From: Stomorhina lunata
Lineage: Eukaryota > Arthropoda > Insecta > Diptera > Rhiniidae
NCBI GenBank assembly: GCA_933228675.1
Contig: OW121743.1
Location: forward strand, 82,894,759-82,958,758
Direction: 5' to 3'
DNA: 64,000 bases
The position numbers were made by a program, and so were the translations under genes. Positions 3,560 to 64,000 of this stretch are shown one piece after another. The notes under the pieces were generated by a model. It worked only from the letters and a program-made list of their open reading frames with translations. It ran no database searches and was not told where the DNA came from. Every line of letters starts with the position of its first letter. Position 1 is the stretch's first letter.

Positions 3560-4939
3560 TCCTATAACAATTTTTTTAATTTCCTATAAAAATAATAAAT
3601 TTTTGAAAAGTTTCCTAACAAATAAAAAAAGGCTAAAAAATTTCTATAAAAATAACATATTTTTGAAAAAATGCCTATAAAAATAAGAAATTTTTTAAAA
3701 ATTTTCTATAAAAAATTCAAAAATTTCTCAAATTTTTAAAAAATTTCCTATACAAATAAGAAATTTTTGGAAAATTTTCTATAAAAATAAGAAATTTTGA
3801 AAAAATTCCTATAATAATCAGAAATTTTTGAAAAATTTCCTATTAAAATAAGAAATTTTTGAAAATTTTCCTATCAAAATAAGACATTTTTGAAAAATTT
3901 CCTATAAAAATAAGAAATTTTTGAAAAATTTATTTTTTAAATAAGAAATTTTTGAAGAATTTCTTTAAAAATAAAAAATTTTTGAAAAATTTCCAATAAA
4001 AATAAAGCATTTTTGAGAAATTTACAATTAAAACAAGAAATTTTTGAAAATTTTCCTATAAAAATAAGAAATTTTTTAAAAATTTCCTTTAAAATAAGAA
4101 ATTTTCGAAAAATTTCCAATATAAATAAGAAATTTTTGAAAAATTTCCTATAAAAATAAGAAATTTTTGAAAAATTTCCTATAAAAATAAGAAATTTTTG
4201 AAAAATTTCCTTGTAAAAATAAAAATTTTTGTAAAAATTTCCTATAAAAATTAGAAATGTTTGAAAAAATTTCTATAAAAATAAGAAATTTTTAAAAATT
4301 TCTTTTAAAATAAGAAATTTTTCAAATATTTCCTATAAAAATTAAACATTTTTGAGAAATTTATCATGAAATTTTTGAAAAATTCCCTATAAAAATAAGA
4401 AATTTTTGAAAAATTTTTTTATAAAAATAAGAAATTTTTGAAATTTTTTTTATAAAAATAAGAAATTTTGAAAAATGTTGAAAATTTAAAAAAATTTCAT
4501 AGAAAAATAAGAAATTTTTGAAAAATTTCCTATCAAAATAAGAAATTTTAAAAAAATTTCCTATAAAAATAAGAAATTTAAAAAAAAAAAAATTCTATAA
4601 AAATTAGAAATTTTTAAACAATTTCCTATTAACATAAGAAGTTTTTTGAAAAATTTCCTATAAAACTAAGAAATTTTTAAAATATTACGTATAAAAATAA
4701 TAAAATATATTTGAAAAATTTCCTATAAAAATTTCCTACAAAAATAAGAAATTTTTGAAAAATTTTCTAAAAAAAATAAGAAATTGTTGAAAAATGTTCT
4801 ATAAGAAATTAAAAAATTTCTTAAATTTTTGAAAAAAAAAATTCAAATATTTCCTATAAAAACAAAACATTTTTAAAAAACTTCCTATTAAAGCAAGAAA
4901 TTTTTGAAAAATTTCCTATAAAAATTTGAAATTTTTAAA
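3560..4939 (+). repeat. 31-bp AT satellite, TATAAAAATAAG type, forward block
   Basis: About 44 degenerate copies of a 31-bp unit whose key boxes are CCTATAAAAATAAG and AAATTTTTGAAAAATTTC. The same satellite recurs at 6244, 10140, 13660 and 17280. Copies differ by point changes and 1-2 bp indels. The right end is abruptly interrupted by the 562-bp repeat at 4940 and resumes at 6244, so the 562-bp element was inserted into the array. Confidence 0.9.
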
Positions 4940-4971
4940 AAAATGCAGCATTCCACACTGCTAAGTGTCAC
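4940..4971 (+). ncRNA. 3' part of hammerhead ribozyme (left edge of array)
   Basis: The left-most unit starts inside the conserved GAAA box. It keeps stem III (AATG-CAG-CATT), the predicted cleavage site (between 4953 and 4954) and the 3' strand of stem I, but lacks CTGATGA and stem II. It cannot fold as a ribozyme by itself. Confidence 0.7.
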
Positions 4972-5464
4972 ATAGTTTTTTCAGTATTCCTAAAATTTAT
5001 TCATCTAATTTAAAAATCATAAATTAAAAAAATAATTTATGACATGAACCTGAGCCCGACTCGAACCCACGACCATCAACATAAATTTCTGGTTCAACTA
5101 AAATTAATTTCTTTCAATTAAATTGCATGGGCACCGCGATTTACATGTTTTCATTAACTCTTTCAAGTTGATACTAAATTCAAAATTTGCATTAACGTAA
5201 AAGAATAAAACAAAACTTGTCAAAACAAAAATCTTTGTCTTCATTACCAGCTGACAGTTGGTTAAAGTACAAAGTAAATGTAGATTAATAAAGGATAGGG
5301 ATACAAAACATAAAGGAAAAAACTATGGTGGATAAGTTCGTCTAACTGAATCGACCATATGGTCATAGGTGAAATAGAAATGAGTGTTAACATAATTCTC
5401 GTTTTCAATTTCGCTTAAGAATTCAGTTAAATAGATGATCTTAACTACTGGCATCTAACAGTTG

Positions 5465-5533
5465 GTGACACAGTGTGCTGATGAAGTCCGTAGCGGGACA
5501 GAAAATGCAGCATTCCACACTGCTAAGTGTCAC
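5465..5533 (+). ncRNA. Type I hammerhead ribozyme (copy 1)
   Basis: A self-cleaving RNA motif read directly from the sequence. Outer stem I is GTGACAC (5465-5471) with GTGTCAC (5527-5533), 7 bp. Inner stem I is AGTGTG (5472-5477) with CACACT (5516-5521), 6 bp, with a 5-nt bulge GCTAA on the 3' side. The core CTGATGA is at 5478-5484. Stem II is GTCC (5486-5489) with GGAC (5496-5499), loop GTAGCG. GAAA is at 5501-5504. Stem III is AATG (5504-5507) with CATT (5511-5514), loop CAG. The cleavage base is C5515, so the cut is predicted between 5515 and 5516. All invariant core bases are present. The oddity is an A-A opposition (5485/5500) at the base of stem II, where G-C is usual. The bulge in stem I facing a 6-nt stem II loop is the arrangement that gives tertiary contacts in fast natural hammerheads. 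Confidence 0.88.
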
Positions 5534-6026
5534 ATAGTTTTTTCAGTATTCCTAAAATTTATTCATCTAATTTAAAAATCATAAATTAAAAAAATAATTT
5601 ATGACATGAACCTGAGCCCGACTCGAACCCACGACCATCAACATAAATTTCTGGTTCAACTAAAATTAATTTCTTTCAATTAAATTGCATGGGCACCGCG
5701 ATTTACATGTTTTCATTAACTCTTTCAAGTTGATACTAAATTCAAAATTTGCATTAACGTAAAAGAATAAAACAAAACTTGTCAAAACAAAAATCTTTGT
5801 CTTCATTACCAGCTGACAGTTGGTTAAAGTACAAAGTAAATGTAGATTAATAAAGGATAGGGATACAAAACATAAAGGAAAAAACTATGGTGGATAAGTT
5901 CGTCTAACTGAATCGACCATATGGTCATAGGTGAAATAGAAATGAGTGTTAACATAATTCTCGTTTTCAATTTCGCTTAAGAATTCAGTTAAATAGATGA
6001 TCTTAACTACTGGCATCTAACAGTTG

Positions 6027-6095
6027 GTGACACAGTGTGCTGATGAAGTCCGTAGCGGGACAGAAAATGCAGCATTCCACACTGCTAAGTGTCAC
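6027..6095 (+). ncRNA. Type I hammerhead ribozyme (copy 2)
   Basis: An exact repeat of the motif at 5465-5533, displaced by 562 bp. It has the same stems, CTGATGA and GAAA boxes and cleavage base (C6077, cut before 6078). Together the two copies would release one 562-nt monomer (5516-6077). Confidence 0.88.
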
Positions 6096-6243
6096 ATAGT
6101 TTTTTCAGTATTCCTAAAATTTATTCATCTAATTTAAAAATCATAAATTAAAAAAATAATTTATGACATGAACCTGAGCCCGACTCGAACCCACGACCAT
6201 CAACATAAATTTCTGGTTCAACTAAAATTAATTTCTTTCAATT

Positions 6244-6489
6244 TTTAAAAAATTTTGAAAAATTTCTTATAAAAATAAAAAAAATTTGAAAAATTTCCTA
6301 TAAAAATTAGAAATTTTTTTAAAAATTTCCTATAAAAAGAAGAAATCTTTGAAAAATTACCTATAAAACTATGAAATTTTTGAAAAATTTCGTACAAAAA
6401 TCAGAAATTTTTGAAAATCTTTCTATAAAAATAAGAAACTTTTGAAAAATTTTCTATAAAAATTATAAATTTTTTAAAAATTTCTTATT
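6244..6489 (+). repeat. 31-bp AT satellite, continuation of the 3560 block
   Basis: About eight degenerate units of the CCTATAAAAATAAG satellite, resuming directly after the truncated third 562-bp unit. Confidence 0.85.
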
Positions 6490-43256: not shown

Positions 43257-45879
43257 CACAATGGGATAAAATTAAACACCAGATGTTAATAATATAAATT
43301 AATTTATGCTTATTTTTTTAGTGATTAAAAGCAAAATACAAATTTTCTTGATTTTAAACAGCTATAACTTTGTTCAAATGGAAACGTTTATAACAAGTTA
43401 TATATCATATTAAAGGCTTAAGTCACTGCTTTAGTACAGTATATAATTTAACTGCATATAACTGCAAATTAAGATTTTTATATTGTAATTAAAATTTTAA
43501 AAAATCAGCTTAGAATGAAAACATTGACCATTTTCTGAACTAAACAGGCAAAAATTTGATTGGGTCTTCAAAAAAATTATATATTTTAGGTGTTCAACAG
43601 TTAACCAGTCTTTGTCATATATTTAAAACCAAGCAAATGTTATTTTCATCAATAGCTTAAAAATTTTTTGTAAAGCTTTTTAATTTTGGTAGACATGTTA
43701 TACATCAATAGAAAGAAAATTTTATATACTTTTAAGTGCGGCAAAACATTTTTCACAATTAAGAAATTGGTTTAAGACTTTTGTCAAAAAAGTGAAAAAA
43801 CAATAAATTTACATAACTTTTGAATATCACTTTTTAATTTTTTGCAAAAATCTCTAAAACTAAACAAGTTATTAGAATGATATATCAGAAATTAAGAAAT
43901 ATTAATTTCATAATGAGTACTGAAATTTTAGTGAACATTTTTGAATAAATTATGAAATTTGCAATAAATTCATGAAATTTTTAAGATTACTTTGTAACTT
44001 TTTCGCAAAAATCTCTAAAACTGAACAAGGTATTATGACCATTTTTGGACACGATATAGACTAATATCTTAAAAATTCAGAAATATAAATTTTATAACGG
44101 GTTATGAAATTTTAATTAACATTTTTCAACACGACTACGTTTTCGAAAATGTTAGATTTTTTTTTAAAGCTGGTCGTGTGACCCTATTTATGGCCGTGCC
44201 TTATCAGATTCTTGCGCAGACTTTACGAACATTACATTTAATATAATTTCGATTAAAAAAAGTTTTGAAATCCATAAACAATATTTTTTACAGACACAAA
44301 CAACTCAAGTTTTGTCCCAAAATTTCTGATTTTATATAATCTCTTAATATTACTTTGTAATTTGTTCGCAAAAATCTCTAAAACTAAACAAGATATTATA
44401 GCTATTTTTGGACACAGTATAAACGAATACCTAGGAAATTCAGAAATATAAATTTCAGAACGATTTCTGAAATTTTAATTAACATTTTCCAATACAGAAG
44501 AGTACGCTTTTCGAAAATTTGAGTTTTTTTAGAAAAATGGGCCGTGTGACCGTATTAATTGCCGGACTCTGTCGGATTTTTGCACAGACCTTACGAACTT
44601 TATACTTAATATTTATACCCTTCACCACCATAGGTGGAAAGGGTATTATAAGTTTGTGCTGAGTCGATTTAGCGATGTCCGTCCGTCTGGCTGGCTGGCT
44701 GGACCCCCATGTAAACCTTGTAATCAAACTACAGGTCGTAATTCTAAAGATAATTTGATGAAATTTGGTACAGATCATTTTTTTGATAATGGGACCATGG
44801 CTATTGAAATTGGTCAAAATCGGTCCATTATTTATGGTACCTCCCATAGGTCCCACTTCCCGGAATTGATATATTGGCCACAAATATCAATATTTTTTCA
44901 TGAAATTTAAAACATATAATTCCTATGCAAACCTAAATCACTGTACCAAATTTTGTCTCGGTCCACATTTGACCATAGCTCCCATACATAATTTTGTTTA
45001 TTTTTGCGTACATAATTTTTATAACAACTGTAATCAATTTGCTAAATTTCGAGATAATCGGTCCACATTTGACCCTAGCTCTCATATAAGCCCAAATGAT
45101 GGAAACAGCTTAAATATATAAGTTTTGAAAAAATGTTTGTATGATGGCAAAAGTTGGCAAATATTTGTCTTTATACAGGAAAAATAACACCTTTGACCTT
45201 AGTGGTGAAGGGTATCGTTTGGTCAGGCTTGACCGACTATAGCGCTTTCTTACTTGTTTTTAATAAATTCATAATCAAAGTATTTTACAGTTACAAAAAT
45301 CTCAAATTTTTTCCAAAAATTTATGATTTTCGACCACCGCTGGTTATAGGGTGCATGTTCAAAATTATTTAAAATATAGTTAACAAGCACTTTAAAGCCT
45401 AGTCGTTTAGAAAATGTTAAAAAAAAATTAGTTTTTAAAAGAAATGTTTGCAAAAATATAGAAAAAGTAAAGTTATCTTTTTTTGAATAAAATGTAATTT
45501 TTTAAGCTTTTTTCGGTACACAAACTTTGAAGAATTTTTATGGGTTATAAACTTAACATAATTTAAACTTCTTTTCTTCTAATTTATTTAAAAATGTATC
45601 AGCAATCTCACAGTATTGTTTAAAAAATTGTCCTTCTAAGCACAAAAGATTTATAAGGCAAAAAAGGCCAGAAGTCTTGAAAAAAAAATGCAAGTCAAAT
45701 ATCTCTTAAACTGTATAAAATAGTGTAGTACAATAAATATATTTTTTCTAAATATTTTTAAGAAATTTTCAAAAATGTAAAAATCTTTTGGATCGGACTA
45801 AATTGGCGAAAGTTATACGCGCCCAAAGTTTTTATGTACCCGAGGTGGGAAAATTTGCTCCACTGTAGATCCCACTGTG
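43257..45879. mobile_element. Candidate old DNA transposon with CACARTGGGAT ends
   Basis: CACAATGGGAT at 43257-43267 is matched by the inverted ATCCCACTGTG at 45869-45879 (one mismatch). Repeated internal motifs include AAAATCTCTAAAACT and ACAAGATATTA (about 43848, 44010, 44370), so the interior is itself built from diverged direct repeats of about 170-360 bp. A (GTCY)-type element is nested at 44610-45260. A block containing AGCTATAACTTTGTT lies at 43362, and a diverged copy lies at 46006, outside the proposed right end. That weakens the boundary assignment. Confidence 0.35.
44610..45262 (+). mobile_element. (GTCY)-type interspersed element, mini-me/Helentron-like
   Basis: It begins with the hairpin TATACCCTTCACC...GGTGGAAAGGGTAT, followed by TATAAGTTTGTGCTGAG and GTCGATTTAGCGATGTCC, then GTCCGTCTGGCTGGCTGG. 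The body contains AATCGGTCCA-type blocks. It ends near 45250 with GTGGTGAAGGGTATC, the small hairpin GGTCA-GGCT-TGACC and ACTATAGCGCTTTCTTAC, similar to termini of dipteran rolling-circle-derived repeats. Related copies lie at 1500-2782 (minus), 55891-56290, 61160-61530 and 63808 to the window end. The short frames within it on both strands are not genes. Confidence 0.6.
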
Positions 45880-61640: not shown

Positions 61641-63660
61641 TGAATACAAATTCCACGTGAAATTTCGTTTTTGTTTTTAATTTTCTTATACATATTGTTA
61701 AACCTATAAAAAATTATGGAATAAACTTTTGAACAGAATTTTTATTCACAATAGGAGCTACTATAAATATGTTTACGCAAAGTAAAATTTATTCTTGTAA
61801 AGTATAATTGTACTATTTAACTTTGTATTTTGAATACAAAGAAATTGTTTACGTACCCATTTATACTTAGAGAAATCATGTGATTAAAAAGCATTATTGA
61901 AAATTTTATATTTTAGTTATTTTCTTAATTTGAGAAATAATAAAATCAGTAAGAAAAGTTTAATTTAAGGAAAAAAAGTTCTTTGTAGAGAATATTATGC
62001 CACCGTTTGATAAAATTTGGGATTGCGTTGTTTTTCTTCTACGGCTGGAGTTAAGGCTGGAGTTAAAGATATATATTTACTGAAAATTATTCTTAAACTG
62101 ATCTTAAAAAGTATAAAAAACAGGCAAACGGAAAATAAGGCTTGTCAGGAACAATGGATATAATAACTCATCCACTCAATTTAAAATGGTAAGAAACTTA
62201 TCTCATTAAAATCAGAGCTTTAAGGCAAAAATGACTCTTGCCTACCTTTAGTTTAGCAATGTTTTGATATTGTTTTGATATGTGGAAAAAATGACCACAC
62301 TGATTTTTATGTGACTCCGTAAAACTGAGCGTCGTATTGGTCAAATTGACAAAACCATTATTAAAAATTGTGTAGCAATCGGAGAGTTTACTGATTCAGG
62401 ATATTCCATAATTAACCATGTTTGCATCTTCAGGAGTGAATGAAAAGAAAAAAGTGTTAGACTTAGTAGCTCTTATCATAACAACTTGCGGTATCGATGT
62501 CAAAACATCGTTCTGTGAAGTCATGAACAGATAAACTTGTAAGCGTTGCTAACTCCTATCACAATGATGGGGGGAAATCAAGGTCTTATTGAACTTTTTA
62601 ATAATTATCCTAATATTTCAAATTTATTATCATTTTACTGCATAAATATCCGCTAGAATCACAGAACAAATTACTTGAAGTCTGTAGAAGCTTACACTGT
62701 CCTATCGGAATGTAATAACGGAATTAAAACCGTTTGGAATGCATGATTTGCCTTTTAATGTTCCTTACTGATATTATAGCATTTTCTAAACAACACATTT
62801 GACTTTGTAAAAAATAAACCTTAATCAGTTTTCAATTTACATTTGATTCAGACCGATCATTTACTCCCTTTTCTTGATTATAATTTGTAATTATTATAAA
62901 CATTCCTTCAAAAGGCTCTTTTTTAGTCGGTAACATCCTTTTTGGGCATAAGTCTTTACTACTGTGGCTCTTAAAAATATATGCCACTGTCAAATGGCTC
63001 TTTTTGACCTTATGCGTACCCACCCCTGCAATATTATTTAATTTTAAACAAAATATTTATCACTCGAAGTAATAAATTCTATCCCAATAAATCAACCCAA
63101 AAAAGTTCATTAAACCAAATTCTAAAAATAAAAAACAGACAAACAAAATTCCATGAAAATGCATCTTGAAATAATTAAAATTTTAAAAGGTTTAAATTTT
63201 TTTTTGCCATATCTTCCAAAAAATTAATTTTGTCTTTCACTCCATCACCACAAATAATAAAAACAATACCAATAATTGTTGTTGCCATTATTTTACAAAA
63301 CAAAAACATTTATTTAATTGTAATTAAATACTCTTTATTTTTGTCTTTGTCTACCACTATCTCCACACAAATCTTCTCTCTAATTTGCATCACCTTCTCA
63401 CCAAAAATAATAAAAACAAAAGAAAACATGTTTGCATACATTTTTTTTTTTTTTTTGTTTGATTCCTTATGATGAATTTCCTATGCATGTGAGTTTTCTT
63501 TAATGTGTTAGTATGATTTTTAAATCCTGAACCGATTCTTTAAAACTGAACCGATTTGAATATAATATAGATTCGTCTGATCTACGGAAAAATACCTTTC
63601 AAATGGTATAACATTTTCCAGAATAGACTGTATAATTTAAACATAAAAGGGGATAATAAA
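61640..63660. other. Single-copy spacer
   Basis: About 2 kb of AT-rich DNA with no splice-bounded or conserved-looking open frame. The frames at 62832 and 63230 are isolated and low-complexity. Confidence 0.45.
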
Positions 63661-63683
63661 TTGGTGCTTGCGTATTAATATTA

Positions 63684-63706
63684 TAGATAGATAGATAGAT
63701 AGATGT
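63684..63706 (+). repeat. (GATA)n microsatellite
   Basis: Five to six copies of TAGA/GATA. Confidence 0.9.
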
Positions 63707-63807
63707 ATAATAATATACGAAAAATGTTCTGTGATAGCCTCATACATTTGAAATTGTAACACCTTTATCTGGGATATTCGTAGCCTTCTTTTGGGTTCGT
63801 TAGAAGA

Positions 63808-64000
63808 AAGTTTGGGTGGAAAGGGTGTTGTAAGTTTGTGCTGATGTATGTTACGCAAAGAAATATTTCTGAGTCGATTTAGCGATGTCCGTCCGTCCGT
63901 CTGGCTGGCTGGACCCCCATGTAAACATTGTAATCAAAATAGAGGTCGCAATTCTAAAGATAATTTGATGAAATTTGGCACAGGTCATTTTTTTGATAAT
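63808..64000 (+). mobile_element. (GTCY)-type element, cut by window end
   Basis: GGTGGAAAGGGTGTTGTAAG, CGCAAAGAAATATTTCTGAG, GTCGATTTAGCGATGTCC, then GTCCGTCCGTCTGGCTGG and GGACCCCCATGTAAACATTG, close to the copy at 44625-44790. It keeps a CGCAAAGAAATATTT segment between the hairpin and GAGTCG that the 44610 copy has lost. Confidence 0.65.

Follow-up and report, generated by a model that had tools for sequence, protein, structure and literature searches.

A candidate retrozyme in the fly Stomorhina lunata, probably inserted by Penelope-like machinery

The closest described relatives of the repeat studied here are the metazoan retrozymes without long terminal repeats (LTRs), which the portions available to us of the work of Cervera and de la Pena (2020, PMC7229834) present as short, non-coding, AT-rich tandem units with a type I hammerhead ribozyme at each junction, dispersed, flanked by duplications longer than 4 bp and strongly self-paired as monomers. 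We analysed a 562-bp tandem repeat in a 64,000-nucleotide stretch of the genome of the fly Stomorhina lunata (contig OW121743.1, positions 82,894,759 to 82,958,758; hereafter the window), and its unit resembles these elements in all of these respects: type I hammerheads lie at its junctions, it occurs in many dispersed copies with duplications longer than 4 bp, its G+C content of 32% is below 50%, and it is non-coding. It differs from them in its length, 150 to 450 bp being quoted for metazoan retrozyme tandem repeats in the same portions, in the A·A pair of its ribozyme core, and in its head-to-head double arrays with two preferred ends; neither "head-to-head" nor "inverted" was found in the text of PMC7229834. 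The host here is a fly, and the portions available name insects in general and cave crickets.

Two other systems invite comparison, each known to us from parts of the papers. The pDo500 satellite of Dolichopoda cave crickets, a transcribed insect repeat with hammerhead-like motifs, is similar to the unit in that respect but is a cricket satellite family, and no insertion signature is described in the available passages (PMC2808323). The LTR retrozymes of plants are, like the unit, non-autonomous and ribozyme-bearing and are thought to move via circular RNA (PMC4918200); they are described as having LTRs, a tRNA primer site, a polypurine tract, a type III hammerhead and 4-bp duplications (PMC7229834). 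The arrays described below show no LTR layout. Our searches of the open-licence literature returned no paper on insect type I hammerhead tandem repeats, Calliphoridae included, and none joining retrozymes, Penelope-like elements (PLEs) and target-primed reverse transcription, although the print record may hold more.

Mobilisation of animal retrozymes by PLEs was proposed in 2020 from co-occurrence and shared type I hammerheads (PMC7229834, PMC7761336), and the available parts of the two papers contain no insertion evidence. According to the sections at hand, a PLE purified from an anole (PAc) acts on both strands of its target, cutting and extending each, and has a preference for AT-rich DNA. 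It begins reverse transcription at two internal sites of an AC-rich stem-loop; these sites delimit the "tail" of genomic copies, and the strands showed no difference in start site (PMC11167929). Penelope copies of the rotifer Adineta vaga are described, again in the part available, as having inverted pseudo-LTRs, a 31-bp tail and 8- to 10-bp duplications (PMC3846280). Compared with these partial accounts (PMC11167929, PMC3846280), the unit is like PLEs in having two internal reverse transcriptase start sites, a tail within 30 to 40 bp, insertion on both target strands, an AT-rich target, an inverted head-to-head arrangement of arms, short duplications and an upstream type I hammerhead. The PLE hammerhead is of a minimal form, whereas that of the unit has a full stem III, and the unit has no open reading frame (ORF) of at least 110 codons that could hold the reverse transcriptase and GIY-YIG endonuclease of a PLE. 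Without such an ORF it is not a PLE, although it inserts like one. Our reading, to which we assign a probability of roughly 0.8, is that the repeat is a non-autonomous non-LTR retrozyme, young and present in many copies, and that PLE machinery, priming from both strands of the cut target, copies its multimeric and probably circular RNA into DNA.

The repeat and its hammerhead junctions

Comparison of the window with itself at an offset of 562 gives a run of 742 nt without a mismatch (4940-5681 against 5502-6243), and the period is thus exact over 4940-6243. The inserted element occupies 4943..6239 on the plus strand and consists of 2.31 units in a single plus-strand arm: unit copy 1 (4943..5504), the identical copy 2 (5505..6066), which serves as reference and is numbered q1-q562 from position 5505, and a partial copy 3 (6067..6239) that ends at q173, chance identity continuing to 6243. 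Its 5' end is of the variable kind and its 3' end is reverse transcriptase start site A, defined below. Flank comparison identifies a 13-bp target-site duplication, AATTTTTAAAAAA, at 4930..4942 on the left and 6240..6252 on the right; a match of at least 12 bp is reached in 2.6% of random flank-pair draws. The target is an AT-rich minisatellite of approximately 31 bp, which occupies 3578..4929 and resumes at 6253-6488. No frame of at least 110 codons was found within the element, and the longest unit frame that passes a complexity filter has 72 codons, stop to stop, on the minus strand (5669-5884, also 5107-5322). From an inner ATG this frame would give a 46-aa signal-peptide-like product, which had no homologue in a protein search and is probably a chance product of AT-rich DNA. 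Protein searches for relatives of the element likewise gave no match.

Both complete junctions carry the same 69-nt hammerhead on the plus strand, at 5465..5533 with predicted cleavage after 5515 and at 6027..6095 with predicted cleavage after 6077. Each has the three stems of a type I hammerhead, together with CTGATGA, GAAA and the NUH cleavage site TTC|CAC; stem I counts 13 pairs, divided into 6 and 7 by a 5-nt bulge, and stems II and III have 4 each. The core reads CTGATGA-A-GTCC-GTAGCG-GGAC-A-GAAA; an additional A on either side of stem II forms an A·A pair that closes the stem next to the core, where a Watson-Crick pair is usual. The core positions C3-A9, G12-A14 and A15.1-U16.1 are all present. 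In the 64 kb of the window, a type I descriptor, whether strict or relaxed, matches these two sites only on either strand, and 20 Mb of Markov sequence of unit composition contains 0 strict and 2 relaxed matches. The original prediction is borne out, namely a near-identical 562-bp tandem repeat without a protein frame whose unit junctions are complete type I hammerheads, very unlikely to arise by chance. It is to be corrected in that the core is not canonical, the pair that closes stem II being A·A.

Two sets of results speak against the motif being a hammerhead. Rfam returned no hammerhead in the window at the gathering threshold (RF00163), none at E <= 5 on 4900-6300 and none at E <= 10 on the motif alone, and the covariance search that the original prediction had suggested as a check thus came back empty. 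In addition, competing folds are better by 3.0 kcal/mol for the 69-mer (-21.8 versus -18.8 for the hammerhead) and by 4.8 kcal/mol for the 562-nt circle (-131.5 versus -126.7) in a nearest-neighbour model, which ignores tertiary contacts. Thermodynamic folding of 5440-5560 (z -0.35) is uninformative for the hammerhead.

The Rfam results can be judged from controls. At the gathering threshold, Rfam also misses six fully paired canonical hammerheads from viral contigs (L020, L032, L033, L041, L048 and L071). In E-value mode, the canonical control L041 scores 28.5 bits (threshold 34), and the window motif is therefore really farther from the Rfam model; on L001, a locus with an A·A core, Rfam gives a weak type III match of 15.3 bits. 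Together, the positive controls and L001 show that the failures on the repeat reflect limited sensitivity and not absence of a hammerhead. Complete hammerhead pairing accompanies the A·A core in 46 of 59 matches in viral contigs: with a GTC stem, both stem I and stem III are complete in 15 of 24, where shuffled flanks lead one to expect 0.56, and with a GCC stem in 31 of 35, where 0.82 are expected, with the proviso that some of the contigs are near-copies of one another and the matches not all independent. For canonical cores in viral contigs, 125 of 135 are complete among the matches listed, against 3.2 expected. A covariance model built from eight short A·A type I viral-contig loci (R1) finds only the two junction sites in the window at E <= 10, with 19.4 bits and an E value of 6.5e-4 (rough calibration), and recovers 10 of 13 held-out hammerhead loci at 14.8-37.8 bits, a span that includes the score of the window sites, missing L027, L071 and L116. 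A second model (R2) held stem II pairs only and was not used. That A·A cores pair fully elsewhere and that R1 recovers held-out loci argues, at the level of sequence, for the variant being a natural hammerhead form. The A·A core with a GTCC stem did not turn up in a scan of genome contigs.

A·A-core hammerheads of both type I and type III recur in IMG/VR loci (L031 and many of L143-L177).

Two-armed insertions with two preferred ends

The genome that contains the window comprises 728 Mb in 104 contigs. Of 1,478 candidates, 40 were scored and gave 224 matches to the unit, on several chromosome-size contigs, and a 34-nt core occurs in 1,121 exact copies, compared with 0 for the reversed control. 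The main sample consists of those 40 fetched loci, the best-scoring of the 1,478, which hold 42 arrays; two of these, both in L204, have the same flanks and may go back to a single event that was duplicated. As best-scoring loci favour young copies, which tells against our reading, a less selected sample was also taken, made up of the 100 exact cores that head the listing, which all come from contig C1 and fall into 67 clusters. Scaling this ratio to 1,121 cores gives an estimate of roughly 750 loci. With three further loci fetched from the C1 sample, the insertions read amount to 42 arrays plus 3 loci.

In the main sample, 32 of the 42 arrays are two-armed and head to head, with the minus arm on the left and the plus arm on the right, and the other 10 are single-armed. 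The outer ends cluster at two unit positions approximately 36 nt apart. Site A, at about q173 (plus strand, 5677; also 5115 and 6239, the last being used at the window locus), follows ATTTCTTTC, and site B, at about q137 (5641; also 5079 and 6203), follows CGACCATCAA and forms the outer end of the other arm in head-to-head insertions elsewhere in the genome; runs of A blur the exact base. The B-to-A stretch of approximately 36 nt (5642..5677) is the equivalent of the PLE tail. Where both outer ends of a two-armed array could be classed (28 arrays), 27 are A/B, 1 is A/A (L223) and 0 are B/B, a distribution with p about 1e-7 if ends were independent, although the classes (B q128-152, A q166-186) were set after the ends had been seen, and four two-armed arrays have an unclassed outer end. 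The window copy, which ends at q173, is a single-armed case that used site A.

The C1 sample has the same orientation: its 17 multi-core clusters comprise 14 head-to-head, 0 tail-to-tail, 2 one-way and 1 mixed, the last being two neighbouring insertions in L211. Three of its 50 single-core clusters were fetched, and in two of them (L252 and L254) the arms proved to stand head to head between duplications of 12 and 13 bp. The points at which arms meet are scattered; the arms either overlap by 0-6 bp or have short inserts between them.

In an end-anchored comparison, 35 of the 42 arrays lie between target duplications of at least 11 bp and 30 between duplications of at least 12 bp, whereas cross-locus left-right pairs reach these lengths in 16 and 5 of 327 cases, respectively; a chance match of at least 11 bp in AT-rich repeats, at about 5%, has to be set against these figures. 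In 33 arrays the duplication measures 11-14 bp; two arrays have longer ones, of 20 and 21 bp, and four have shorter ones of 8-10 bp. Where flanks were inspected they are AT-rich repeat, except to the left of L219. Complete units of different loci are on average 1.98 substitutions apart, and 319 of 4,147 pairs are identical (93 complete units), which marks the copies read as young. The original prediction had described a young, non-autonomous retrozyme-type element, to be searched for genome-wide, and had allowed for an assembly duplication of a single locus. The exact cores and the spread over several chromosome-size contigs dispose of that duplication, and the target duplications, low divergence and lack of an ORF support the description.

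A stem-loop is predicted around the start sites (5608..5657, plus strand, repeated at 5046-5095 and 6170-6219), formed by GAACC at 5608-5612 (q104-108) and GGTTC at 5653-5657 (q149-153), which pair with a probability of 0.61; site B lies in the loop and site A 20 nt downstream. Within the same stem-loop, on the strand opposite the ribozyme, every unit in the window has an RNA polymerase III B-box-like sequence, GGTTCGAGTC (5620-5629, minus strand), which was spotted by eye and could also be read as complementing the T arm of a tRNA. In a tRNA-derived short interspersed element, internal A and B boxes would lie on the transcribed strand.

One fetched locus, L226, holds two observations of a different kind. 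A seemingly old, diverged copy of the element lies at L226:1190 (CTGACGAACTCCGTAGCGGGACAGAAA); it is apparently interrupted, a sequence resembling the start-site module following after several hundred nt, and the retrozyme family may be older than its young insertions. At L226:62-373, which overlaps the end of L186, there is a second hammerhead-like family with inverted cores, CTGATGA-C-GTCCTGTGG...GAAATTGCAATCC, placed head to head at 162 (minus) and 265 (plus) and having an almost loop-less stem III. In the window itself, a dispersed repeat family with recurring frames (HKLIIPFPPMV..., SQPARRTDIAKS...) was seen by eye at 44479-44886 and 63640-63933, and its frames also occur at L226:4838-5312 and L230:8875-9261. 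Two frames of the window had no Pfam family, and ARAGORN found no tRNA.

Penelope-like elements in the same genome

Pfam GIY-YIG matches only two places in the genome. One is SLX1-like and lies beside a MED31-like frame, and searching with the translation of the other revealed the PLEs. Their endonuclease has 150 scored matches in the genome, of which 11 lie in open frames 830-864 aa long, and RVT_1 is present in all four of the PLE ORFs tested. When matches within 6 kb are grouped, the 34 multi-match clusters comprise 25 head-to-head, 0 tail-to-tail and 9 one-way. Six loci of about five families were read at length. The PLE L249 has the signature of the retrozyme arrays: its left end is of type B and its right end of type A, and it is flanked by a perfect duplication of 13 bp, GAAAAATTTTTTT. 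The PLEs read have GACCT/AGGTC or GACCA/TGGTC in the place that matches GAACC/GGTTC of the retrozyme; this likeness of the start stems, found by eye, is no more than suggestive.

At L250, a tandem PLE with a period of 2,977 bp is 100% identical over 4,072 bp and has two intact 846-aa ORFs, which suggests a recent insertion. At L230:5230-5364, a stretch of 135 bp is its own inverted repeat (92%) and lies at the truncated 5' side of a PLE copy; it is perhaps the trace of a head-to-head junction.

Insertion model, template and rival explanations

The tandem units, hammerhead fold, copy number, paired ends, duplications, shared private variants and PLEs with the same signature are all observed, and a route that would yield them can be proposed. 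Tandem units would be transcribed from the plus strand, the hammerhead at each junction would cut the transcript into 562-nt monomers, and these would be closed into circles. A PLE protein from the same genome, acting in trans, would bind the stem-loop about 93-142 nt downstream of the cleavage site and cut an AT-rich minisatellite target such as AAAAATTTTTC so as to leave 3' overhangs whose length, to judge by the duplications, would be 11-14 nt. The two freed 3' ends would prime on element RNA, one at site A (about q173) and the other at site B (about q137); each complementary DNA (cDNA) would run round the circle for up to nine turns, and the two would meet 5' to 5' at a scattered, often microhomologous junction, giving a head-to-head double array flanked by a duplication. 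In its strictest form, with both 3' ends of one staggered cut priming on the same retrozyme RNA circle, as a rule one per start site, and rolling-circle cDNAs joined head to head by Penelope-like machinery, we regard the proposal as probable, with less assurance than the broader reading given at the outset.

Several findings beyond those already given weigh against that broader reading. The two-armed insertions as a rule use both start sites, unlike the strands of the anole PLE in the part of that paper available to us (PMC11167929). The anchored search found no duplication at three arrays (L210, L216 and L219), and L253, the third single-core cluster fetched, has a 30-nt inverted stretch and no duplication that we could find. 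Among the PLE loci, a clean duplication is present at L249 only: none was found at L247, and at L246 the pseudo-LTR ends differ by 39 nt and a 13-bp match lies 5-6 nt off the ends. The tail of L249 itself is 36 nt as anchored, with a run of A at the B end on account of which it could be 32-36 nt. The start stem, picked by eye, is absent from the minimum-energy folds of 2 of 5 PLE segments, and AC-richness does not single out the start region, another unit window scoring higher. Finally, comparison of the unit with the 22 fetched PLE loci, a set with some overlaps, gave no significant DNA match (best E 0.046), and no one PLE can therefore be singled out as its partner.

As to the template, opposite arms of one locus are on average 0.095 substitutions apart (38 of 42 unit pairs identical), compared with 0.29 for units within the same arm (68 of 89 pairs identical), which suggests that each insertion was copied from one template. 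Arms of at least one unit account for 55 of 74, the longest having 9.27 units, and no more than 2 of the 74 5' ends come within 3 nt of the cleavage site, so that the reverse transcriptase passes this site freely. Eight of the 74 are placed at q1, inside the hammerhead, which, where inspected, is an effect of short unaligned remainders between arms. Free passage would fit a circle and an uncut multimer alike, and the strongest rival explanation holds that the template is an uncut multimeric transcript of an existing array, inserted by the same PLE machinery with no role for the ribozyme. For the anole PLE, the available sections report uncut RNA as the main in vitro substrate and ribozyme mutants that insert equally well (PMC11167929); a linear uncut multimer would give an identical array structure, and homogeneous arrays would likewise yield identical units in both arms. 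As weak counterpoints, 143 of 149 full-length hammerheads in the 40 fetched loci are identical, and the hammerhead varies less (0.045%) than the unit body (0.426%, or only about 0.125% without one window-private site; significance untested). The circular monomer is also strongly self-paired (z -5.9, 0 of 60 shuffles as low), as is the unit body without the hammerhead (z -6.3, 0 of 200), in keeping with what is reported for retrozyme circles. An uncut template is a real possibility, if the less likely of the two.

A second possibility is that the unit is no independent retrozyme at all but a PLE that has lost its interior and survives as a derivative of a solo pseudo-LTR. As in PLE pseudo-LTRs, a start-site module lies downstream of a type I hammerhead, the ends are of the same kind, and a parent could be present among the PLE copies beyond the six loci read at length. 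The hammerheads differ, however: in the unit, stem I has 13 bp and a bulge and stem III has 4 bp and a loop, while the PLE cores at L230, L246, L250 and L251 look minimal by eye. Since the unit also lacks significant similarity to the fetched PLEs, it looks like a parasite of PLE machinery and not a deleted PLE, most PLE copies being unread, and we consider such a deletion derivative unlikely.

Target-primed reverse transcription of the long interspersed nuclear element (LINE) type, with twin priming, seems more improbable still. LINE twin priming also produces inverted arms and variable junctions with 0-6 bp of overlap or short inserts. It predicts neither two preferred ends 36 nt or so apart, one of each in 27 of 28 arrays, nor the excess of head-to-head over one-way clusters (14 versus 2) in the C1 sample, and the paired-end pattern is found at the PLE L249 in the same genome. 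An ordinary satellite that owes its spread to unequal crossing-over or to extrachromosomal circles, and its hammerhead-like fold to chance, would account for tandem, non-coding, AT-rich units and a ribozyme that Rfam does not call, but it is hardly tenable given dispersed short arrays with head-to-head arms, a fold very unlikely by chance, and duplications and preferred ends that oppose it as the main process.

If the proposal in its strictest form is true, it would name the mobilising enzyme of animal retrozymes and show that each target strand has its own one of the two PLE start sites. The insertions, estimated at several hundred here, would record the reaction, with two start sites, one per strand, a circular or multimeric template and staggered cuts of 11-14 bp. 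Because Rfam misses the A·A core, ribozymes of this kind are probably under-counted and perhaps poorly covered by that database. Intact PLE ORFs in the same genome make the question of which enzyme moves the retrozyme directly testable. The insertion record is sequence evidence for the mobilisation of animal retrozymes by PLEs, which had earlier been proposed from co-occurrence.

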